Source of the DNA: a virus
DNA length: 54,217 bases
Virus record (IMG/VR): IMGVR_UViG_3300039448_000022
Span: 1 to 54,217 of that record
Direction: 5' to 3' (one strand)
Numbering within the stretch: the first letter of the stretch is position 1; every line of letters starts with the position of its first letter. The translations under genes were made by a program, and so were the position numbers. The notes under the pieces are model-generated. The model worked only from the letters and a program-made list of their open reading frames with translations. It was not told the origin of the DNA and did no database searches. Of this stretch, positions 2,256-45,979 are shown one piece after another.

Positions 2256-3171
2256 GTGGATTCTCCAGTTTATTGGTACGTTCTTTTACTGCTTTTTGCA
2301 GTGTTTCTATTAGTATGCCTTTATCAAAAAACTGACCCGCGCATCGTTCAGTTAGCTTGCTACCAATGTGCGCTCCAAGGGATTGAATTGCTCCGTTGTC
2401 AGGTACCCGGTCTAAGTTTTTGATCTGCTCATCAAGCCATTCTTTAGTATCATTGAAGTTTTTATTTACAGAATCTCGAGCCTCATCCTCCAGACGATCC
2501 AAGGTCGCTTGCTTGCTTGCTTCAAAAGCCTTCAGCTCATTTGTTTTTCCAAATGAACTTGCCCAGCGGTAAGCGTCATTAAACGCGTCTTTAAGCTCCG
2601 GTAAGCTTTTAGCTGCAATAATTGCGTTATCAAATCGATCTGAATTCATGTTGGGTAGCGCCCACTCAGGTAGTTTTGGCGCTTGCCAGTCCACACCGAA
2701 TTTTTGATTGCTTGATTTGTCTGTAACCTTTGCAAAATTATGAAATGCGTTCGCTCGGCTATTGCATAAAACACAAGATGCAAATACAGCTTCTAAGTGA
2801 TACAGGTAGCGTCCGATTCCCAAAAGGGCACCGGCTCGCTTTAAAGCACCTGAGGCACCGCCCTTAAGAGGTTCAATATCCGTCTTTGGCGCAACGTCTT
2901 GTTTTTTAATCCAGCGGCCATCGACGAATATTGATAGGGTGCATATAAAGCCGTCTAAGTTTTTAGTTTCTTCTTGAGCTACTTCCCAACCGAACGGAGT
3001 GAAGACCTCATCAAGGCGCTGCTGAATAGCGCGGCTAGTGATATACGGGATAACGATCATCCACGGCTTGCCGTTGGTAATTCCCGCTTGCTGTGTGCGC
3101 CATTCAATATCATTGGGATCAAATGGCTCTTGAAGACGCAACATAAGTTCTTTGTTGGTGCCAGAATTCAT
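2242..3171 (-). CDS. Rad52/Rad22-family single-strand annealing protein
   Basis: A 309-residue protein whose N-terminal half matches the Rad52/Rad22 annealing domain: YITSRAIQQRLDEVFTPFGW (about 43-62), then a beta-rich stretch with a predicted KKQD turn, and the signature KGGASGALKRAGALLGIGRY (about 103-122). These proteins form rings that anneal complementary DNA in phage recombination (Sak-like). The C-terminal half is less conserved and helical, probably for SSB or nuclease contact. It is translationally coupled to the small gene upstream through an ATGA overlap and to the coiled-coil gene downstream. Confidence 0.88.
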   Translation of the reverse strand: MNSGTNKELMLRLQEPFDPNDIEWRTQQAGITNGKPWMIVIPYITSRAIQQRLDEVFTPFGWEVAQEETKNLDGFICTLSIFVDGRWIKKQDVAPKTDIEPLKGGASGALKRAGALLGIGRYLYHLEAVFASCVLCNSRANAFHNFAKVTDKSSNQKFGVDWQAPKLPEWALPNMNSDRFDNAIIAAKSLPELKDAFNDAYRWASSFGKTNELKAFEASKQATLDRLEDEARDSVNKNFNDTKEWLDEQIKNLDRVPDNGAIQSLGAHIGSKLTERCAGQFFDKGILIETLQKAVKERTNKLENPHDKD

Positions 3172-3434
3172 GCCGCTACCTCAGTCTTCGCAGTTGCTGT
3201 TTCGAATCGGCGCTGTATTAATCCGCTCAATCCAGTGTGAGTTTTTGCGCACAGCTCTTCGACCTGACCGTTTTTGTGACGAATTTTTGTCACCCATAAT
3301 TTCAGCTTGGGCTGATACTTCGACGGAGAAGCTAGAACCATCGGCCATAGTCCGCTTGGGTTTGCTTTTGTTGGCGCTAGCTTCACTATCCGAGTTAGAG
3401 ACTTGCTGCGGAAATATTCGATTGAATTGTTCAT
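3168..3434 (-). CDS. Small basic phage protein upstream of Rad52
   Basis: An 88-residue basic protein (contains LWVTKIRHKNGQVEELCAKT). I chose this frame over an overlapping one (minus, 3181-3453) because it has a well-placed AAGGA ribosome site, its stop overlaps the Rad52 start as ATGA, and its composition looks like folded protein rather than a Ser/Arg-rich shadow. Function unknown; likely part of the recombination operon. Confidence 0.6.
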   Translation of the reverse strand: MNNSIEYFRSKSLTRIVKLAPTKANPSGLWPMVLASPSKYQPKLKLWVTKIRHKNGQVEELCAKTHTGLSGLIQRRFETATAKTEVAA

Positions 3435-3449
3435 TGAAAATATCCTTTT

Positions 3450-3827
3450 TCACAGGTGGTAATCTCGGTCCATTTCGCGTTGCTGAAGCAGGTAATCAGC
3501 ATGCTGCTCAGCCCGGTTTTGATGCTCTGCTTCAATCACAGATTCGAGATTTTTAGCCGCGTATTTCAACAAATGCGGATAAATAACATCGTCAGAAATT
3601 TGCGTGGCACGATTTTGAAAAGGGCCGCCAATCGCAACAAGTTTTGAGAGTTCAGTCATGGCATCGCAAAACTCAACGCTGTAACCCGCTGCCCAATTTG
3701 CGAAAGCCTCGTAGTTGATTTGGGATATAACATCACCGTTAATAGCGGGGATGAACTCGTTGCTTTCTAGCTCTAGGATTTCCTGAGCTAGCGATTCTGC
3801 GCTTGCTTGGCTGAGTATTAATGGCAT
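3450..3827 (-). CDS. First gene of the leftward early operon, unknown function
   Basis: A 125-residue, mostly helical acidic protein with no family I recognise. It is the promoter-proximal gene of the leftward operon: a GGAGACGGAC ribosome site precedes its ATG, and the predicted operator-controlled promoter lies 50-75 bp upstream. Expression should therefore be shut off by the CI-like repressor in a lysogen. Position suggests an early accessory or anti-host role; that is inference only. Confidence 0.65.
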   Translation of the reverse strand: MPLILSQASAESLAQEILELESNEFIPAINGDVISQINYEAFANWAAGYSVEFCDAMTELSKLVAIGGPFQNRATQISDDVIYPHLLKYAAKNLESVIEAEHQNRAEQHADYLLQQREMDRDYHL

Positions 3828-3854
3828 GTCCGTCTCCGTTCCTGAGTCGTTGTT

Positions 3855-3927
3855 AAGTTATCTTGATTTGATGAATGTAAGATAACTTGATTTGATCGTC
3901 AAGTATGAAATCAAGAAAAATTGATTT
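3855..3927. promoter_or_regulatory. Left operator and leftward early promoter
   Basis: On the minus strand TTGACG (3902-3897), a 17-bp spacer and TACATT (3879-3874) form a good sigma-70 promoter aimed at the gene starting at 3827. Around it are repeated repressor-like words: AAGTTATCTT (3855-3864) inverted as AAGATAACTT (3879-3888), two direct copies of CTTGATTTGAT, and a palindrome AAATCAA-N6-TTGATTT (3908-3927). The same word occurs at the right operator near 4.74 kb, so both are probably bound by the CI and Cro-like proteins. Confidence 0.65.
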
Positions 3928-4011: not shown

Positions 4012-4668
4012 TTAAGGTAGCAGCCAGGACATTACTATGCCTACGACTTTACCGATGCAGATCGCGTCAGACAAAGGTATCGACTCCCAACCAGGTGATT
4101 GGTTGGCAAACTGCAGCATCCTGCCTCTTATGGTCTCAGTTACGCGAGCAAGTGTTACTTCGCCATTGACTTCAAAAAGCCAAACGCTTTGCCCAGGTGT
4201 GCAGTTGCGCTCTGCAGGATCAATGATCACGACATCGCCGGGGCTAACCATTGGAGCCATACCTGTTGTTGTCTCTGTATAGATAATAGAGCCGGGCGGG
4301 GCACGAAAGCCTAGCGCTGCTTGCGCAAGTGACAATTCAGCACTTGGGTAATCATCTAAATTACCGCTCGCCAATGCTGCTGCAAGTTGAGTTTTCTCTA
4401 ACATTGGGTATTGAGGTGCCAGAACGTCAGTATTGTTTTTTGGTGAGTTCTTGCCGGTGAGTATGTAATCAGGCGAGACACGCAAAGCCTTGGCGACGGA
4501 GTGTAAGTTTTGCCCCTTGGGCGCTGTAGATCCTTTCTCCCATAGTGATATGGTCGCTTTTGAGACGCCGCAAAGCTTGGCTACGCCGTCTTGGGTCAGT
4601 TTTAACAGCATCCGTTGTTCTTTTAGCCGATCTCCAATCATACCGCTCACATTGGCCTTGTTTTTCAT
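4012..4668 (-). CDS. CI-like repressor with degenerate S24 peptidase domain
   Basis: 218 residues. An N-terminal XRE helix-turn-helix (about 10-70, with LTQDGVAKLCGVSKATISLW) is followed by a LexA/CI-type S24 domain (about 120-215, with MVSPGDVVIIDP and GKVVGIV). It would hold lysogeny by binding the palindromes on both sides of the gene. Oddly, the catalytic Ser position aligns with Gly136 (TTGMAP in place of xSMxP) and the catalytic Lys with Ala174 (VTLAR in place of VTVKR), so self-cleavage looks impossible. Another mode of induction, such as an antirepressor, is implied. Divergent from the Cro-like gene. Confidence 0.85.
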   Translation of the reverse strand: MKNKANVSGMIGDRLKEQRMLLKLTQDGVAKLCGVSKATISLWEKGSTAPKGQNLHSVAKALRVSPDYILTGKNSPKNNTDVLAPQYPMLEKTQLAAALASGNLDDYPSAELSLAQAALGFRAPPGSIIYTETTTGMAPMVSPGDVVIIDPAERNCTPGQSVWLFEVNGEVTLARVTETIRGRMLQFANQSPGWESIPLSDAICIGKVVGIVMSWLLP

Positions 4669-4701: not shown

Positions 4702-4751
4702 TTGACAAAGGGTTTTGCATGATCTAACTTTCGAATCAAGAAAACTTGATT
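4702..4751 (+). promoter_or_regulatory. Right early promoter and operator
   Basis: A perfect -35 TTGACA (4702-4707), a 17-bp spacer and a weak -10 TAACTT (4725-4730) point right toward the Cro-like gene. Immediately downstream is the palindrome AATCAAG-AAAA-CTTGATT (4734-4751), the same word as in the left operator, placed to block initiation. The reverse direction should serve the repressor gene, but I do not see a strong promoter for it. Confidence 0.6.
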
Positions 4752-4769: not shown

Positions 4770-4976
4770 TTGAAAACAACAGACGTAATTAAACATTTTC
4801 GTACTGCCGTCGCTGCCGCTGCTGCGATGAACGATGACGATCCGGAGTGGACGATTAGTACGCAAGCGATTAGTCAGTGGGGCGAGTTTCCGCCTCGTGG
4901 TCGTCAGCTTCAGTTGCAAGAAATTACTGAAGGCGCTCTTAAAGTCGAAAAGAAAAAGGTTCGCGCTCATGGTTGA
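4770..4976 (+). CDS. Cro-like repressor with TTG start
   Basis: A 68-residue protein beginning at a TTG codon with an AGGCG ribosome site. From that start it reads like the P22 Cro family: DVIKHFRTAVAAAAAM, then STQAISQWGEFPP (recognition helix region), then QLQLQEITEGALK. Such proteins bind the same operators as CI and favour lytic growth. Unlike typical members it has a 7-8 residue acidic insertion (NDDDPEWT) between the first helices. It is the first gene after the right operator. Confidence 0.8.
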   Translation: MKTTDVIKHFRTAVAAAAAMNDDDPEWTISTQAISQWGEFPPRGRQLQLQEITEGALKVEKKKVRAHG

Positions 4977-5303: not shown

Positions 5304-5768
5304 ATGGCCTCTTTAACCAAACTTTGTAAGGGTCAGCATAGACGCCTTTTTCTTGCTGCGCAGGCTGATTCAAAGACTTTTCCGGGTGGAATTACAGGAC
5401 TATCCGAACAGTTGGGGATTAATAACACAACACTGGCAAATCAATTAAATCCTGATCACGAATCAACGCCACCGACACTGGCAACGGTGTTGGAAATTAT
5501 CGTGATAACGGGGGGAGCAAGAATGTTAATCGCTCTTTGCTCACTCGGTAGTTGTGTACCAATTTCGATGATTGTTGAGCAGCGATCAAGGGAAGAAGCA
5601 ATTGTCTTGTTTCTGAAATTCGTTGGCACTGCGTCTAAAGCATTAGGCAATGGTAGTGAATTTGCGTCTGATGGGAAATTCAATAGTGAGGAATGCGCAA
5701 AGTTAGAAGTATTCCTCATGAGCTTGATTAAGAGTTCGTTTGAATTGCTCAATTCGTTAAAAAATTAG
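5304..5768 (+). CDS. CII-like phage regulator (CP76 family)
   Basis: A 154-residue protein. Residues about 25-75 (GLSEQLGINNTTLANQLNPD, then TLATVLEIIVITG) fit the phage regulatory CII/CP76 family, in which a helix-turn-helix is followed by a conserved NQLNPD-type motif. The C-terminal 70 residues are helical and probably mediate oligomerisation. It follows the Cro-like gene in the rightward transcript, as CII does in lambdoid phages, and is closed by a strong terminator. It likely activates the repressor promoter, but this is by analogy. Confidence 0.7.
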   Translation: MASLTKLCKGQHRRLFLAAQADSKTFPGGITGLSEQLGINNTTLANQLNPDHESTPPTLATVLEIIVITGGARMLIALCSLGSCVPISMIVEQRSREEAIVLFLKFVGTASKALGNGSEFASDGKFNSEECAKLEVFLMSLIKSSFELLNSLKN

Positions 5769-6323: not shown

Positions 6324-6400
6324 GCGCCCGTAGCTCAACTGGATAGAGCATGAGTTTTCTAGTCTCAGGGTTGAAGGTTCAAGTCCTTCCGGGTGCGCCA
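6324..6400 (+). tRNA. tRNA-Arg(TCT)
   Basis: 77 nt that fold fully: acceptor GCGCCCG with CGGGTGC (one G-T pair), D-stem GCTC/GAGC, anticodon stem TGAGT/TCTCA (one T-T mismatch at its top) with loop TTTCTAG giving anticodon TCT, T-stem GAAGG/CCTTC with loop TTCAAGT, and an encoded CCA. It would read AGA/AGG codons. It lies inside the phage early region, so it is probably phage-carried, possibly captured at an attachment site. Confidence 0.9.
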
Positions 6401-11042: not shown

Positions 11043-11428
11043 CGTTACCAACAGAACTTGTCGGGGCATTTATATGTGCTGTGGTTGAGGTTGCTGTCTC
11101 ATGGAGCCTTGTTAAGGACACTATTTTGTATGCGGGGTCTTTTAAAAAAAGCACTGAAGATTATCAGGGTCGCTCACTTGATCCAGAACGACTTAGGTCT
11201 GCATTCGTTAATTATGAAACTTTACTTTCTGACTTTTCCTTTAGTCATGAGGAGAGGATTATTTTTTTGAAGATCGTTCCTGAGATTGAATGGTACCCCG
11301 AACATAGGGCTGCAATTATCGATAAGGTTAATGACTTGGTAACTCAGGAAAAGTGGAAGGGGGTGCCGACTGAAACATTATTCCGTGCAGCTTTCAATGA
11401 ACTCGTTGAAGGCGGAACTATTCAATGA
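11039..11428 (+). CDS. Unknown middle-operon protein
   Basis: 129 residues with an N-terminal hydrophobic stretch (VGAFICAVVEVAVSWSLV, about 8-25) and a helical acidic remainder (EERIIFLKIVPEIEWYPEHR). The start overlaps the NinB stop as ATGA and its stop overlaps the next start as ATGA. I recognise no family; the hydrophobic part may be a buried helix or a membrane anchor. Confidence 0.55.
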   Translation: MTLPTELVGAFICAVVEVAVSWSLVKDTILYAGSFKKSTEDYQGRSLDPERLRSAFVNYETLLSDFSFSHEERIIFLKIVPEIEWYPEHRAAIIDKVNDLVTQEKWKGVPTETLFRAAFNELVEGGTIQ

Positions 11429-11685
11429 AAGAACACGCAGAACTCACAGACATGCAGCGCAATGTGTATGACTTCATGGTGCGAGGTTTGATAGCAGATC
11501 AGCGAATTCCGACGATTCAGGATATTCAAGCTAGGTTTGGTTTTGCTTCGGGTAATGCAGCTTCAGCACATTTAAAAGCACTGGTTAAAAAAGGCTATCT
11601 AGTATCTAGGAAGAAGGGCGGGCGCTCACCCTACAAAATAGCCGGTGCAATCATTAACGTCAGCATAAACGGGAATTCAATATGA
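11425..11685 (+). CDS. Stand-alone LexA-type DNA-binding domain
   Basis: 86 residues matching the LexA N-terminal winged helix along its length: LTDMQRNVYDFMVRGL, then IPTIQDIQARFGFASGNAAS, then AHLKALVKKGYL. There is no S24 peptidase part, so it cannot be cleaved through RecA. It could occupy LexA-like boxes permanently or act as a dedicated phage regulator. It is coupled to both neighbours by ATGA overlaps in the recombination part of the operon. Confidence 0.75.
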   Translation: MKEHAELTDMQRNVYDFMVRGLIADQRIPTIQDIQARFGFASGNAASAHLKALVKKGYLVSRKKGGRSPYKIAGAIINVSINGNSI

Positions 11686-13148: not shown

Positions 13149-13676
13149 ATGGAGACGATTTATTGGAGTACTGAAGTAGCACATGCGGACAACTCAGAAA
13201 CCATGGTCGACTTCATGGAAAACGTCAACATGCTCGACATTACTCTTGTTGATGGCACCTACGCTGAGGGCGTTAATTGCAATGGGGAAGCTTACGGCAT
13301 TCATGTGAGTGGTGATGGTGACTGTTTTAACCACAAGGCTGAATTTGAATTATTGAACGTAAAAGAAGAGGTTGCTGTTATGAGAAATGCAGATTTTGGA
13401 CAGGCGCTTGAGCATCTTAAAGCCGGTATTGGCAATAAAGCTTGGAGAGCGGATTGGGAGGCTAAGGGTATGTGGATGCTTCTCACTCCGGGGCGGGTTA
13501 TCGAGTCCTGCAAGCCGGATAGCTTTTACGACAAATGTGGGTTTGAAGCTCCGGTTAATATCTCTGGCCACTTTGATATGAGAGCAGAGAACGGGTCAAT
13601 GATTGTTGGTTGCCAGCTACAGCACGACGACTTGCTTGCGGAAGATTGGTGCTTTGAAGTTTTAGATAACGCCTGA
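13149..13676 (+). CDS. Tad2-like (DUF2829) protein with extra N-terminal domain
   Basis: 175 residues. The C-terminal 95 (about 82-173) match the DUF2829/Tad2 family: DFGQALEHLKAG, then WRADWEAKGMWMLL, then DLLAEDW at the end. Tad2 proteins bind and sequester cyclic-ADP-ribose signals made by Thoeris defence. Here an unrelated 75-residue N-terminal region precedes it, containing VNMLDITLVDGTYAEG. Anti-defence function is inferred from the family and is not visible in the sequence. A ribosome site (TTAGGAGG) precedes the start. Confidence 0.7.
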   Translation: METIYWSTEVAHADNSETMVDFMENVNMLDITLVDGTYAEGVNCNGEAYGIHVSGDGDCFNHKAEFELLNVKEEVAVMRNADFGQALEHLKAGIGNKAWRADWEAKGMWMLLTPGRVIESCKPDSFYDKCGFEAPVNISGHFDMRAENGSMIVGCQLQHDDLLAEDWCFEVLDNA

Positions 13677-14384: not shown

Positions 14385-14446
14385 CCAAGGGGAGTTTGAA
14401 GGTTTGTATTTTTTGTTAGTGGTTATTGGTGGAGCAGGATGAAAAT

Positions 14447-15076
14447 ATGACTCATGGCATTCCGAATGATAAAGCATCGCTAAATCACGAAAAGGCGGAG
14501 CTAGCAAATATGATCGGCAGGCGCATGGAAGCCGCAAGAAGATTAAGTCATTTAACTCAGGACGTGGCGGCTCACCGTCTTGGTTATAACAATAGCTCTA
14601 AACTAAGCAAGATTGAAAAATCGTCAGACACTATGAGTGTGCCTAATTACATAATTTGTCGTGCGGCCAAGCTTTATGATGTGACAACTGATTATCTTTA
14701 TGGGCTATCGGATGATTGGGAACCCAGTACGCCTCGCGATGTAAATATGTTTATTGCTCAGCTTATGGAAAAGACCACAAAGCAGAACATACAAGCCATG
14801 GCACAATTGAGTAATAAGGTTCGACTGGTTACCGAATTGGTGGAACTCATAGGTTCTGAGACATTAGAAGTTAAGGAAGCTCTTGATAGCTTCTGTGCCA
14901 TGCACCCTGAAATTGAGGATATGAGGGCCAGCAGGCTTATTAGCAGTATCAATCGGGCATACCACTCAGGCAAGGAGGCCAATAACCGCCTAGCTAGATT
15001 TAAGAAAGAGTGTAGGGAGCACTCTGTAAGTGATGAGAACCAGCTAAAACTTGAATTAACTGAAGAACGAGGGTGA
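14447..15076 (+). CDS. XRE-family transcriptional regulator
   Basis: 209 residues from ATG 14447 with an AGGATG element upstream; a GTG at 14426 is an alternative. An XRE helix-turn-helix spans about 20-85 (LTQDVAAHRLGYNNSSKLSK, then AKLYDVTTDYLYGL). The C-terminal 110 residues are helical and lack a peptidase fold. It lies between ssb and the terminase genes, so it may control the late operon. Confidence 0.8.
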   Translation: MTHGIPNDKASLNHEKAELANMIGRRMEAARRLSHLTQDVAAHRLGYNNSSKLSKIEKSSDTMSVPNYIICRAAKLYDVTTDYLYGLSDDWEPSTPRDVNMFIAQLMEKTTKQNIQAMAQLSNKVRLVTELVELIGSETLEVKEALDSFCAMHPEIEDMRASRLISSINRAYHSGKEANNRLARFKKECREHSVSDENQLKLELTEERG

Positions 15077-15077
15077 T

Positions 15078-15950
15078 GTGAGCAATAAATCGATTACCCC
15101 TGAACAGTGGAAAGTAATTCAAGCTAAATGGGAGGGTGACCCACGCCCCGGTTATAAGTGGTTAGAGGAAGAACTTGAATTACCAGTTACGCGTCAAGCG
15201 ATTGGTAAGCGGTCACGTAAGGAAGAATGGAAGAAGGTTTCTGTACGCAAAGAAGAAGCGGAGTTTCGCAAAGAAAGAATCCGGGCAGGCGTCGGGAAAC
15301 CGGAAACCAAGGGAAACAACTCAGGTGGCAGTGGTAATGGCCCACCGACTGGTAAAAACTCAAACATACCAGGCACTGGCGATGATGATTCGAACCTTCC
15401 GATAACTGAAGAAGATGCCAATAACGTTGGTCGACCAACCAAGTACAGGTCTGAGTATGCACATCAAGCGTATAAGTTGTGTCTGCTTGGCTATACAGAT
15501 AAAGGCTTGGCAGATTTCTTCATGGTTGCTGAAAGCACGCTCAACTTATGGAAGAAAGAACACCCTGAATTTTCGGAGTCTTTGCGCTCGGGTAAGTGTA
15601 TAGCTGATGCTGAGGTTGCTAATTCGGTGTACGTGAGAGCGACTGGCTACACTCATGATGCGGTTCATGTGAGCGTGTTTATGGGGGATGTAACGTTAAC
15701 CGATATACAGAAGCACCATCCGCCTGACATCGCTGCCGCCAAAATGTGGCTATACAACCGACAGCCTCACCTTTGGAAAGCCAAGGTTGAAGTGGCTGAT
15801 GAAGTTGATGACAAGGATATCGTTACAGATGATGAGCTGGAGAGAATCTATCTTGAGTCTATGGAAAAATCCCGTCTTGCAGCCGAGAAGGTTATAGGTC
15901 GAGGCGAGCGCCTTGGTATTACCATAGAGCAAGTGTCTGATGCCGATTAA
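15078..15950 (+). CDS. Terminase small subunit
   Basis: 290 residues, GTG start. The N-terminal part (about 1-70) is a helix-turn-helix (LELPVTRQAIGKRSRKEEWK). A Gly/Asn linker (about 80-115) and then a second DNA-binding core (about 118-195: YRSEYAHQAYKLCLLGYTDK, then ADFFMVAESTLNLWK) are typical of TerS, which recognises the packaging site. An overlap of 11 bp with the large subunit start supports the pairing. Confidence 0.8.
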   Translation: MSNKSITPEQWKVIQAKWEGDPRPGYKWLEEELELPVTRQAIGKRSRKEEWKKVSVRKEEAEFRKERIRAGVGKPETKGNNSGGSGNGPPTGKNSNIPGTGDDDSNLPITEEDANNVGRPTKYRSEYAHQAYKLCLLGYTDKGLADFFMVAESTLNLWKKEHPEFSESLRSGKCIADAEVANSVYVRATGYTHDAVHVSVFMGDVTLTDIQKHHPPDIAAAKMWLYNRQPHLWKAKVEVADEVDDKDIVTDDELERIYLESMEKSRLAAEKVIGRGERLGITIEQVSDAD

Positions 15951-18480
15951 GCGTGTTCTGCTTCAGAACGATAAAAGGTGGAAGCCGTTCATTGCTCGAT
16001 ACGCGAGTGACCCGGAAAGGTTCGCTCGCGAGGTTCAAGGTATCTTTCTTTCTGAACAGCAAACCGACCTTGCAGCGTTAGTCGCCTCTCCTGATTCACG
16101 TACCGCCGTCCCCTCTGGTCATGGCTGTTTTGCGAAAGGCACCGAGATTATGTTGGCGTCTGGTGACGTAATTCCGGTTGAAGAAATACTACCTGGTCAA
16201 CGAGTTATGGCTGCCAACGGTCAGTCTTCACGCCTTGTGTGCGAACTGCGTCGCGGTCGCGAAAACATGTACCGTTTCACATACAACGATGGTACTTCTC
16301 ACGTTTTCAATGAGTCACACATATTGTGTTTAGTGGCCACAAACACCAAAGGCCGACGTACTGCTGGCGATAAAATAACCGTTACGGTTCGTGAGTGGCT
16401 TACGTGGGGCGAAGACAAAAAGCGCTGCCATGCCATCTATCGCAGCTCAGTAAAAAGTTTTGATCAGGCTGAGACTTCGCTGCCGTTACCTGCCTACGTT
16501 TTGGGGGTGTGGCTTGGTGATGGTCATACGTCTGCTGCAAGGGTAACGACCGCCGATCCAGAGATAAAGCAGGCGCTGCAAACGTATGTCGATAGCACGG
16601 GTACTTTGTGCCTGAAGCATGTAGCAAAGTGTGGTAATGCTGAAACGCTGTCACTGTCGACAACAAAGTGGCAAGACAATGCTTTTATCAATGGTCTTCG
16701 TGATGCGGGAGTGTTTGCTGATAAGCACATCCCCGATAAATACCTGTTTGCTCCATTGGTTGATCGGCTGGAATTGCTTGCTGGCCTCATTGATACAGAC
16801 GGAAGTCGGGATGCTTATGGTTATGATTTTATTCAGAAGTCAGAGCGCTTGGCTCGGCAGGTGGCGTGGCTTGCCCGGTCGGTCGGTTGTCACTCGACCA
16901 TAAAACAGACGACAAAAGTGTGTGGTAACACTGGCGTGTCCGGTACTTATTGGCGGGTAACCATTGGCCGCAATACAGATACGATACCTGTGCGCGTGGA
17001 ACGGAAGAAGGTCAATAATCCGAATAGCCAGCGGCGTAACCTGCATTTCGGAATCAAGTCGTGCGAGCCACTGGGCGAGGGTGATTATTTCGGTTTTGTG
17101 CTTGATGGTGATCACCGATTCCTTGGTGGCGACTTCACTGTTCTTCATAACACCGGTAAAACCACCTCAATTGCGAATCTTTGTGTCTGGCACCTTCTTT
17201 GTTTCGCATTTTCAAACACTTTGATGACCGCCAACGACATGGACCAGATGAAGGTAACTATCTGGAAAGAAATCGGTTTGGCGGTTGGGAGAATAAAGAA
17301 GGGGCCACACGCTTGGATCGCTGACCATATCGAAATCTTGGCAGACGGTAAGGCGCGTATTGTTGGGTATGAAGACACTTGGTTTATTGAGGCTAAGACA
17401 GCAAACGCTAAAAATGCGAACAAGATGGCAGGTCGTCACGCTGACTATCTGTTGATTATTGCTGACGAAGCCTCAACGGTGCCTGATGAAGTCCTAACGA
17501 CACTTTCAGGTGCGCTATCGTCCGGTGCCGGCAATAGAATGTTGATGACCAGTCAGCCAACAAGAACGGCTGGGTTCTTTTACCGTGCCTGTCACGAGCT
17601 TAGTATTTTCAATGGCGGCAAATGGACTCCGCTTACTCTTAGCTCTGTTGATTCGCCGTGGGTGTCTGAAGAAGCCCTTGAAGAATGGTGGAATACCTAC
17701 GATGAAGATGAGCGTTTAATTCGAATTCTGGGTGTGTTCCCTCAGAATTCGAATAAGTTCATGATGGGTCGCCGTGACGCTGAGAAAATGTACAACTTTG
17801 ACACGCCTATTATCGGTGAGGATGATGACTGGGGGTGGATGGTTCTCACTGACGTGGCGTTAGGTGAAGGACTTAGGGATAAGTCTGCATGTATTGCTGT
17901 TCGTGTATATGGCCATGGTGAGCAGCGTAAAGTAGAAGTGATGGAGATCCCATTCTTTACGAATGGCATACGCTCCAATAAATTGCCGTTCCATATTGTT
18001 GAGGCTGGCAATGATCTTGATAACGTAACGTATGGCGTAGATGCAGGCGGGATAGGTGGGACTACGTGCCAAAACCTAGAAGACATGTCGGTGCCGGTTA
18101 AACGTATTCACTGGGGCAACCCGTGTTTCCGTAAACGAAATAAAGAGCGTTACTTAAATCTCCGTGCTCAAGCAATGCACCAGGCAGCGCTCGCAGCTAA
18201 GCAAGGCCGTCTAATTGTTCGTACTACTAAGTTTAAGAAGTTTGTCATTGAACAAGCCTCTCGCATACCTAAAGACTGGACGGGCAAAGCATTAATTAAA
18301 GTGCCAGAAAAAGGCTCAACCGCTTGGGAGGGCATGAAGTCTCCCGATTTATGGGATGCTATTTGTTTCGCGTTCTTAGAAGGTCTGGACTATGCGCAGT
18401 CTTCGGATGCTGCAAATGATACCGGCGCGGTGAAGTCGCTAGAAGATTTAGCCGATGATGCGTTCGCAGACATCGCATAA
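15940..18480 (+). CDS. Terminase large subunit, interrupted by an intein
   Basis: 846 residues as translated. Removal of residues 63-404 (the intein) leaves about 504 residues, the normal TerL length. The joined sequence restores the Walker A loop SGHG-TGKTTS; the Walker B is LLIIADEAS. The C-terminal half carries the RNase H-like nuclease (VLTDVALGEG, then YGVDAGGIGGTTC and the DLWDAICFAF end). It packages DNA into the prohead by ATP hydrolysis. Before splicing the ATP site is broken, so packaging depends on intein excision. Confidence 0.9.
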   Translation: MPIKRVLLQNDKRWKPFIARYASDPERFAREVQGIFLSEQQTDLAALVASPDSRTAVPSGHGCFAKGTEIMLASGDVIPVEEILPGQRVMAANGQSSRLVCELRRGRENMYRFTYNDGTSHVFNESHILCLVATNTKGRRTAGDKITVTVREWLTWGEDKKRCHAIYRSSVKSFDQAETSLPLPAYVLGVWLGDGHTSAARVTTADPEIKQALQTYVDSTGTLCLKHVAKCGNAETLSLSTTKWQDNAFINGLRDAGVFADKHIPDKYLFAPLVDRLELLAGLIDTDGSRDAYGYDFIQKSERLARQVAWLARSVGCHSTIKQTTKVCGNTGVSGTYWRVTIGRNTDTIPVRVERKKVNNPNSQRRNLHFGIKSCEPLGEGDYFGFVLDGDHRFLGGDFTVLHNTGKTTSIANLCVWHLLCFAFSNTLMTANDMDQMKVTIWKEIGLAVGRIKKGPHAWIADHIEILADGKARIVGYEDTWFIEAKTANAKNANKMAGRHADYLLIIADEASTVPDEVLTTLSGALSSGAGNRMLMTSQPTRTAGFFYRACHELSIFNGGKWTPLTLSSVDSPWVSEEALEEWWNTYDEDERLIRILGVFPQNSNKFMMGRRDAEKMYNFDTPIIGEDDDWGWMVLTDVALGEGLRDKSACIAVRVYGHGEQRKVEVMEIPFFTNGIRSNKLPFHIVEAGNDLDNVTYGVDAGGIGGTTCQNLEDMSVPVKRIHWGNPCFRKRNKERYLNLRAQAMHQAALAAKQGRLIVRTTKFKKFVIEQASRIPKDWTGKALIKVPEKGSTAWEGMKSPDLWDAICFAFLEGLDYAQSSDAANDTGAVKSLEDLADDAFADIA
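16126..17151 (+). mobile_element. Mini-gene intein with LAGLIDADG homing endonuclease
   Basis: 342 residues. The N-terminal splice block is CFAKGTEIMLASGDVIPVEE with Cys at position 1. The C-terminal block is GDYFGFVLDGDHRFLGG... ending in HN, followed by Thr in the host protein. Two LAGLIDADG motifs lie between: YVLGVWLGDGH and LELLAGLIDTDGS, as in DOD homing nucleases. The block B histidine is present (NESHILCL), though the usual Thr is replaced. The frame is open and all key residues are intact, so it is probably active. It sits between Gly62 and Thr405 in the P-loop. Confidence 0.93.
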
Positions 18481-23909: not shown

Positions 23910-23975
23910 CGGAAAGCTCAGCATATTCATACCCCTCAATCCCACAAAATAGTGGGTAAATACTGGGGGTTCTCT

Positions 23976-24764
23976 ATGAAATCAAACCACATCTTATTTC
24001 CATTCGATAAAAGCCAAATTAATGCGACTCAAAAGCGAAAGATTGCTCAGCTCTTTAAAAAGGGTGGGGCTGAAGTGCTTGAGGTCGAGGTGGATTCTAA
24101 AACCTCCACAACGGCAGGCATTAAAAACCGACAAATCAATATCAGCTTTACTGATTCCCAGTCGGTAACGATGTTTGTTAAAGAGTCGGGTGACGTTTAT
24201 CAGGTGATGGTGAATAAGCGTCGTGTGCCGATGAAAGAACAAGACGATCATGAAGGCGCCATTAAGGAAATTGCAGCCCGTCTTGAAGCCGGCCGTACCG
24301 CTTTTCAGAAGCGACTTTCAAAAATCAAAGCCCCAAAGCCGCGCGGCGTAAAGGCGACCTCCCGTAAAAAAGTGACTTACATACAAGAGCGCAAAAAGGC
24401 GCTAGTGGAAGAGCTTCACGTTGTCCGCAATAAAATCGACGTGCTAAAAGCCGCAGCTGAAGGTGGCAGCAACGACGATGTAGCTGGCTCAGAGCCTGAA
24501 GCAGCTACAGAGTCACCAATTGATAATGTTGTGACTTATCAGCTGGTCAAGAAAAATGAATATCAGTATCAAATAAAACAGGGCCGGAAAGTTGTAGACA
24601 AAATCATAAGCGTCACTGGTGGCTGGGCTGTAAAGAGCAAGATATTTGATTCCGTTTCAGAGGCGGTTGAATGGTTCAAGGTCATGCAGAAAAATACATT
24701 GATGGCGTTTTCTGATCGCGAAGTAGACGTGCGTGTCGATGGTTTGATTCAGGAGGCAGCATGA
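23976..24764 (+). CDS. Unknown protein preceding the polyvalent genes
   Basis: 262 residues from ATG 23976 (GGGGG upstream). An N-terminal domain (about 1-110) with alternating beta strands, a Lys/Arg-rich helix (about 112-155) and a C-terminal beta segment (QLVKKNEYQYQIKQGRKVVD). It precedes the two large polyvalent-type genes and ends in an ATGA overlap with the first, suggesting they form one module. In P1, DarA-type proteins are co-injected with DarB, so a similar head-linked role is possible but not shown. Confidence 0.5.
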   Translation: MKSNHILFPFDKSQINATQKRKIAQLFKKGGAEVLEVEVDSKTSTTAGIKNRQINISFTDSQSVTMFVKESGDVYQVMVNKRRVPMKEQDDHEGAIKEIAARLEAGRTAFQKRLSKIKAPKPRGVKATSRKKVTYIQERKKALVEELHVVRNKIDVLKAAAEGGSNDDVAGSEPEAATESPIDNVVTYQLVKKNEYQYQIKQGRKVVDKIISVTGGWAVKSKIFDSVSEAVEWFKVMQKNTLMAFSDREVDVRVDGLIQEAA

Positions 24765-44710: not shown

Positions 44711-45220
44711 ATGGTCGCTCAATCCACTGTTACTAAGCTCTCAGTTGAGCTTGTGCGCAAACCTGCTACCTCTGCGCTTAAGTTTAAAAACCGCAAGAGA
44801 ATCCCGTTCCACCGTCTTCCATTCGTTGATGCTGTACTAGGAAAAATCGGCCTGTCCTTCTGGGCGGTGCCAAAGACGGGTAATTACTTCGGCGGTTTTG
44901 AGACCGGCAATAATCTGGCTCGCATTTATCTGAAATACCTTCGAGAGAATGGCTCTAGTGGCGGTGGAACTCTTCCGTGTATGGTGTTGGATATGTTCGA
45001 CTGCGAAAACACCGACGACCCATCCATGAGCGCTTTGCGCGGGCAGGTGGTCGGCTTCTTCTCGGAGCTTGAATCTTGGGTTGCAATAGCATCACGTCAC
45101 TCTGGTGATAGTTTGGATCATCTGAGCAATACGCGATTACTCGAAGTGGCTAATAACGGTCTAAATTTCGATAACGAGTCGTATTTCACTGCTCAATCAG
45201 ACGAAGATGAGAAGGAGTGA
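44711..45220 (+). CDS. Unknown gene paired with the antirepressor
   Basis: 169 residues with a strong AAGGAGG ribosome site. A basic N-terminal part (KFKNRKRIPFHRL) and GNYFGGFETGNNLARIYLKY are the most distinctive parts; the tail is acidic. No family recognised. It is three bases before the Rha/ANT gene, so both are made together after the leader is read through. Confidence 0.6.
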   Translation: MVAQSTVTKLSVELVRKPATSALKFKNRKRIPFHRLPFVDAVLGKIGLSFWAVPKTGNYFGGFETGNNLARIYLKYLRENGSSGGGTLPCMVLDMFDCENTDDPSMSALRGQVVGFFSELESWVAIASRHSGDSLDHLSNTRLLEVANNGLNFDNESYFTAQSDEDEKE

Positions 45221-45223
45221 GCC

Positions 45224-45979
45224 ATGAACAGCATTGTTAACCTAAACAACACCGGTTGCCCAGTCACTACCTCACTAGCCATTGCCGAAGGCGTGGGAAA
45301 CCCGCACAAGTCCGTTATCCAACTGATCCGCCAGAACACCAGCGATATGGAGGAATTTGGCCCACTCGCATTTGAAATGCGGAAGGGTGAAGCCCTGCCA
45401 CAGGGCGGTTTTGCCAAGTCAACCGAATACGCCATACTCAACGAACAGCAATCCACCCTTTTGCTCACATATATGCGCAACAACGACGTGGTGCGCGAGT
45501 TCAAAAAGCGACTAGTCAAAGCCTTCTTTGAGCTAGCCCAGCAGCGGCAATCTCCGGCAGTTAATAATCTGTCCCGTCTAGATATACTGCAGATGGCGAT
45601 TCAGTCCGAAGAAGAGCGATTGCGTCTGGAGTATGAAAAACGCCAATTAGAACACCAACTGGAAGAGGAAGCGCCACTTGTAGCTTTCGCCAAACAAGTG
45701 GAAATAGCCCCAGACGCAATTAGCGTTGCGCAAGCCGCAAAGGTACTAGGTACCGGCCAACGTCGCTTGTTCGATTTCCTTCGCCAAATTGGCTGGGTTT
45801 CGCGGCGCAACGAGCCATACCAGACCAAGATTGAAGCTGGTTACTTAAACGTTAAATTGGGAAGCTTTCATCACCCTAGTCACGGCCTGCAACAGTCAGT
45901 CACTGCACTGGTGACCGGAAAGGGGCTGACCAAGCTTCAGAAGCTATGGGTGCAGCGCCATAAGGAGAGCGCAGCATAA
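45224..45979 (+). CDS. Rha/ANT antirepressor protein
   Basis: 251 residues. An N-terminal Rha domain (about 14-107: SLAIAEGVGNPHKSVIQLIR, then EYAILNEQQSTLLLTYMRNN, then VREFKKRLVKAFFELAQ), a helical linker, and a C-terminal ANT domain (about 140-235: DAISVAQAAKVLGTGQRRLF, then DFLRQIGWVSRRNEPYQ). Such proteins displace or disable phage repressors. A natural partner for the non-cleavable CI of this phage. Overlap and spacing couple it to the gene at 44711. Confidence 0.85.
   Translation: MNSIVNLNNTGCPVTTSLAIAEGVGNPHKSVIQLIRQNTSDMEEFGPLAFEMRKGEALPQGGFAKSTEYAILNEQQSTLLLTYMRNNDVVREFKKRLVKAFFELAQQRQSPAVNNLSRLDILQMAIQSEEERLRLEYEKRQLEHQLEEEAPLVAFAKQVEIAPDAISVAQAAKVLGTGQRRLFDFLRQIGWVSRRNEPYQTKIEAGYLNVKLGSFHHPSHGLQQSVTALVTGKGLTKLQKLWVQRHKESAA

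Follow-up and report, generated by a model that had tools for sequence, protein, structure and literature searches.

The window analysed here, an entire IMG/VR virus record 54,217 bases long, encodes a CI/C2-type repressor whose S24-like domain, judged from alignments, has lost both catalytic residues and the scissile dipeptide of self-cleaving repressors. We consider it probable, at about three chances in four, that this protein is a functional, non-cleavable repressor in which the S24 fold acts as an oligomerisation module, and that the phage is either non-SOS-inducible or induced by an antirepressor.

Active site and hinge of the repressor

The open reading frame, its coordinates and both of its domains are genuine (Table 1). 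The N-terminal helix-turn-helix (HTH) and the S24-fold C-terminal domain of self-cleaving S24 (LexA/CI/C2) repressors are both present, with Pfam matches to HTH_3 (E=2e-14) and Peptidase_S24 (26.6 bits against a cut-off of 23.3, E=5e-6), and residues 6–213 match the phrog_4 transcriptional repressor in PHROG (1e-32). An AlphaFold model, for which a 65-sequence alignment was the input, has a mean pLDDT of 83.2, exceeding 90 over most of the S24 domain. Its fold matches include a lambda-186 hybrid repressor, lambda CI, LexA and the N-domain of P22 C2.

The first-pass annotation had placed Gly136 and Ala174 at the two S24 catalytic positions, and alignments of 14 and 65 sequences bear this out. 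Met137, the M of the GDSM motif, is invariant in the 14-sequence alignment, where Gly136 lies under the serine and Ala174 under the lysine. In the independent alignment of 65 sequences the near-invariant S and K columns correspond to positions 136 and 174 of the window repressor, and the hinge A and G columns to Leu95 and Ala96; Met137 is again invariant or nearly so. A nine-sequence MAFFT alignment that included lambda CI also gave K to A at 174, with the Ser column displaced because the loop of lambda and P22 is longer there; the ungapped match GDSMEPMLYDGGLVVID / TTGMAPMVSPGDVVIID, together with the larger alignments, fixes this column at Gly136. Alignment with LexA and lambda CI had been suggested as a check on the annotation, and the larger sets place neither a serine nor a lysine at the active site. 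One alignment offered S127 as an alternative nucleophile, which is ruled out by the invariant Met137 match and the absence of a nearby lysine. The sole lysine past residue 92, K207, lies in the conserved IGKVVG strand near the end of the protein and outside the active site, and realignment therefore cannot restore the dyad.

The loss is, as read from these alignments, a triple one, since the hinge dipeptide, Ala-Gly or Cys-Gly in self-cleaving repressors and overlooked in the first-pass annotation, is missing as well. Because nucleophile, general base and scissile Ala-Gly are all gone, the failure of RecA-assisted self-cleavage predicted in that annotation is well supported at the level of sequence.

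Table 1. Positions of the repressor, its active-site codons, the flanking immunity elements and the Rha/ANT gene in the window
Feature	Position	Strand	Basis or remark
CI/C2-type repressor, 218 aa	4012..4668	-	HTH residues 10-72, hinge, S24-like domain about 85-218, no catalytic dyad
Gly136 codon (GGT), catalytic Ser position	4261..4263	-	alignments and codon read
Ala174 codon (GCT), catalytic Lys position	4147..4149	-	alignments and codon read
Leu95-Ala96, scissile Ala-Gly position of cleavable repressors	4381..4386	-	alignments
Left operator-like site TGTTAAGTTATCTTGATT	3851..3868		9/10 of P22 consensus
Left operator-like site ATGTAAGATAACTTGATT	3875..3892		9/10 of P22 consensus
Left operator-like site AATCAAGAAAAATTGATT	3909..3926		9/10 of P22 consensus
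Right operator-like site AATCAAGAAAACTTGATT	4734..4751		10/10; perfect palindrome, adjoins cro
Cro, divergent from CI	4770..4976	+	P22_Cro family, E=8.7e-14; probable TTG start 4770, ORF listed from 4746
CII-like activator	5304..5768	+	family match, CP76 (phage 186 CII) family
Rha + ANT/KilAC protein, putative antirepressor	45224..45979	+	domain matches; in the late region, some 40 kb away from CI

Operators and early region

The operators of P22 follow the pattern ANTNAAG-N4-CTTNANT. As a control, the P22 record was scanned with this pattern; its annotated OR contained three 10/10 matches and its annotated OL one. In the 54 kb of the window there are seven sites matching at 9/10 or better, four of which fall in the short gaps between CI and its two neighbouring genes; the three left-hand sites precede the left operon. 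Putative 18-bp P22-type operators around the gene and a divergently transcribed Cro are features of a P22 C2-type immunity region, and both the DNA-binding half of the repressor and its putative targets appear to have been maintained. The sites flanking CI may also be used by Cro.

P22 C2 is the nearest solved relative of the DNA-binding part of the window repressor (43% identity over 69 aa), and the two systems also share the operator pattern, the P22-type Cro, the S24 domain and a similar repressor length (216 aa for C2). C2 is cleaved, however, and has the serine, the lysine and the hinge Ala-Gly, all three of which the window repressor has lost.

The prophage could instead be defective and its repressor gene in the course of decay. 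The protein lies on a long branch of the repressor tree described below and no tyrosine integrase was found in the window record, which may be incomplete or come from a prophage that integrates otherwise. The frame is nevertheless full-length, its fold is well predicted and its HTH is conserved; the operator-like sites have been kept, and the neighbouring early and late genes are intact. Decay is therefore very improbable.

Close relatives of the repressor were not recovered, the best in our survey being about 31% identical. Scans of viral and genome contigs with the window repressor gave only an HTH match from Marisediminitalea that has no S24 domain, and a search of 296 genomes at order level and 369 at class level gave distant repressors only. 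A terminase scan of viral contigs gave no matches.

Several other genes were observed in the window. The early region carries a tRNA-Arg(TCT) gene (6324–6400, + strand) between CII and an HNH gene, and a phage-borne CsrA (E=4e-27) is encoded at 476–667 on the minus strand. A second XRE-type HTH regulator, which has no S24 domain, lies directly before the terminase small subunit (14426–15076, +) and is a possible late-gene regulator. The large terminase, which is P1 PacB-like (15940–18480, +), contains an intein of about 350 aa interrupting the Walker A motif (SGHG/TGKTT).

Dyad loss among related repressors

To place the triple loss among other phage repressors, 126 distinct HTH-S24 repressors were surveyed. 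The sample is not random, consisting of the best matches to the window query and of one search with the C-terminal domain. The Ser and Lys dyad was intact in 116 and missing in 10, and this rate of 8% is only indicative because of the way the sample was drawn. The hinge Ala-Gly was missing in 8 of the 10 dyad-broken repressors but in only 1 of the 116 with an intact dyad. When loci fetched by the Ala-Gly pattern (VQAG) were left out, the hinge Ala-Gly was present in 46/47 intact and 2/10 broken repressors (p=2e-7). The other dyad-broken repressors came from bacterial genomes (L028, L030, L036, L041, L047, L048, L051 and L052) and from Ruegeria phage RpAliso (L009), and most of these also lack the hinge Ala-Gly. 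These counts suggest that the serine, the lysine and the cleavage site tend to disappear jointly in HTH-S24 phage repressors, and that a noticeable minority of such repressors (10/126, in a biased sample) are unable to self-cleave.

On a tree built with the trait columns removed, the state of the dyad changes six times by parsimony, and at least three of these changes are forced by well-supported branches. The rows nearest to the window repressor are dyad-intact. The loss in L041 looks recent, because the intact L037 is a close relative.

Automated labels such as 'LexA family' or 'S24 peptidase' imply SOS induction even for repressors without a dyad; a check of three residues would predict which prophages are unresponsive to the usual inducers.

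The CI repressor of phage 186 is, by analogy, the proper mechanistic precedent for the window repressor. It too combines an HTH with a LexA-like C-terminal domain lacking the dyad, a CP76-type CII adjoins it, and its solved structures are among the best fold matches of the window model. The dyad positions of 186 CI are Gly118 and Arg152, and among 59 distinct sequences of its family the Lys position is Arg in all 59 and the Ser position is Ser in none. The two phages differ in that 186 has a LexA-controlled Tum, whereas neither a promoter LexA box nor Tum was found in the window. A pairwise score of 71, where shuffled sequences reached at most 48, had pointed to a special kinship with 186 CI. 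With a smaller 186 CI profile, the window C-terminal domain ranked next after 186 itself, but with a fuller profile it did not stand out from other S24 repressors in closeness to 186: it scored 10.3 bits, 186 and one further survey repressor ranking above it and shuffles staying at 3.8 or below.

Gifsy-type prophages, which the first-pass annotation had put forward as the known parallel, make a poor one. Their repressors GfoR and GtgR resemble the window repressor in not being cleavable, but they are only about 136 aa long and have no C-terminal cleavage domain at all (PMC3121763), and they are countered by LexA-controlled small antirepressors. The 218-aa window repressor instead retains a dyad-less S24 domain, as does 186 CI.

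Routes to induction

If the reading preferred here is correct, the product of 4012–4668 would be a working lysogeny repressor in a lambdoid (P22-type) immunity region. Its HTH would bind the P22-type operators on either side of its own gene, and the S24-like domain, in which nucleophile, general base and cleavage site are gone, would now serve only for dimer and higher-order contacts. With dyad and cleavage site lost, RecA-stimulated self-cleavage would be unable to remove the repressor, and the prophage would be either not SOS-inducible, as for P2, or induced by a repressor-binding protein, as 186 is by Tum. The failure to find an integrase in the record weighs against this reading, in which lysogeny is presumed.

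The promoter regions of the window contain no match to CTGT-N8-ACAG, the sole match (35413) lying within an ORF, although the LexA motif of the host may differ. A scan with LexA boxes of the E. coli type and several others, which may likewise not be those of the host, gave matches in coding sequence only. No Tum- or DinI-like gene was found among the window ORFs searched.

The P2 prophage is not SOS-inducible, and that the window phage simply behaves in the same way, with spontaneous excision only, is a serious possibility, if somewhat short of an even chance. The missing promoter boxes, the missing Tum- and DinI-like genes and the loss of all three cleavage determinants are as this would predict, but negative findings from a single, perhaps incomplete record of a phage whose host may have another LexA motif are weak evidence. 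Induction by a small antirepressor, for example the left-operon product of 3450–3827 or that of 3168–3434, is only a little less probable. Phages 186, N15 and Gifsy have all made up for missing cleavage with LexA-controlled antirepressors (PMC3121763), those of 186 and N15 being Tum and AntC (PMC3121763, PMC7708051), and neither of the two window ORFs has a Pfam or PHROG match. Both ORFs lie behind the putative left operators, however, and would thus be repressed in the lysogen, and no window promoter region has a LexA box, with the proviso that the box consensus may not be that of the host.

The phage does carry a Rha/ANT protein, as first annotated, but the suggestion that it replaces self-cleavage is unsupported. 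In favour of a dedicated antirepressor are its ANT/KilAC domain and its PHROG match to 'anti-repressor Ant' (E=3e-51), and proteins with related domains, such as P1 Ant, antagonise repressors. Two related phages argue against it. IMG/VR 3300009428_000011 and 3300045790_003108 have CI in the same place and a related early region. Both encode counterparts of the window's Rad52/Erf-like (37%) and DUF1351-like proteins, SSB, replication protein, Cro and Rha/ANT (74–75% identical); one of the two also has Dcm in common with the window. Unlike the window CI, theirs is fully cleavable (GDSM, ATLKQ, VQAG), and they have no P22-pattern operator of at least 9/10 around CI. The S24 repressors in other Rha-bearing viral contigs were intact in 15 of 15 cases, and 447 phage records contain a Rha-type protein, the Roi of HK620 and that of CUS-3 among them. 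Neither a LexA box nor a good CI-type operator was found upstream of the late-region Rha gene. Since Rha co-occurs with a cleavable CI and has no promoter LexA box, Rha/ANT neither marks nor evidences compensation for lost cleavage, and a role as dedicated substitute is unlikely. The protein might still act on the window CI, but is a weak candidate for an inducing factor. More generally, these comparisons suggest that non-cleavable repressors are not to be recognised by the presence of an antirepressor gene elsewhere in the genome. The Rha/ANT gene belongs to a two-gene unit (44711–45979, +) in which a phrog_12849 protein ends 3 bases before it, a pair that is kept in L056 and L058.

A further idea, which we regard as improbable, is that in the window lineage and others without a dyad the S24 domain has been repurposed as a docking receptor for phage-specific induction signals, such as an antirepressor or a small ligand; if so, the phage would have swapped the SOS network for another trigger. 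An 86-aa protein encoded at 11425–11685 (+) was noted that consists of a stand-alone LexA DNA-binding domain (LexA_DNA_bind, Pfam E=1e-12) with no protease domain. Similar proteins were found in only 5 phage records. Competition between this one and the host LexA for SOS boxes is conceivable, and the analysis gave no evidence for or against it as the inducer. The window also encodes a Tad2-like protein of the Thoeris anti-defence family (13149–13676, +; E=2.6e-12) and, within the tail gene block, an Hdf-like antirestriction protein (23952–24764, +; PHROG).
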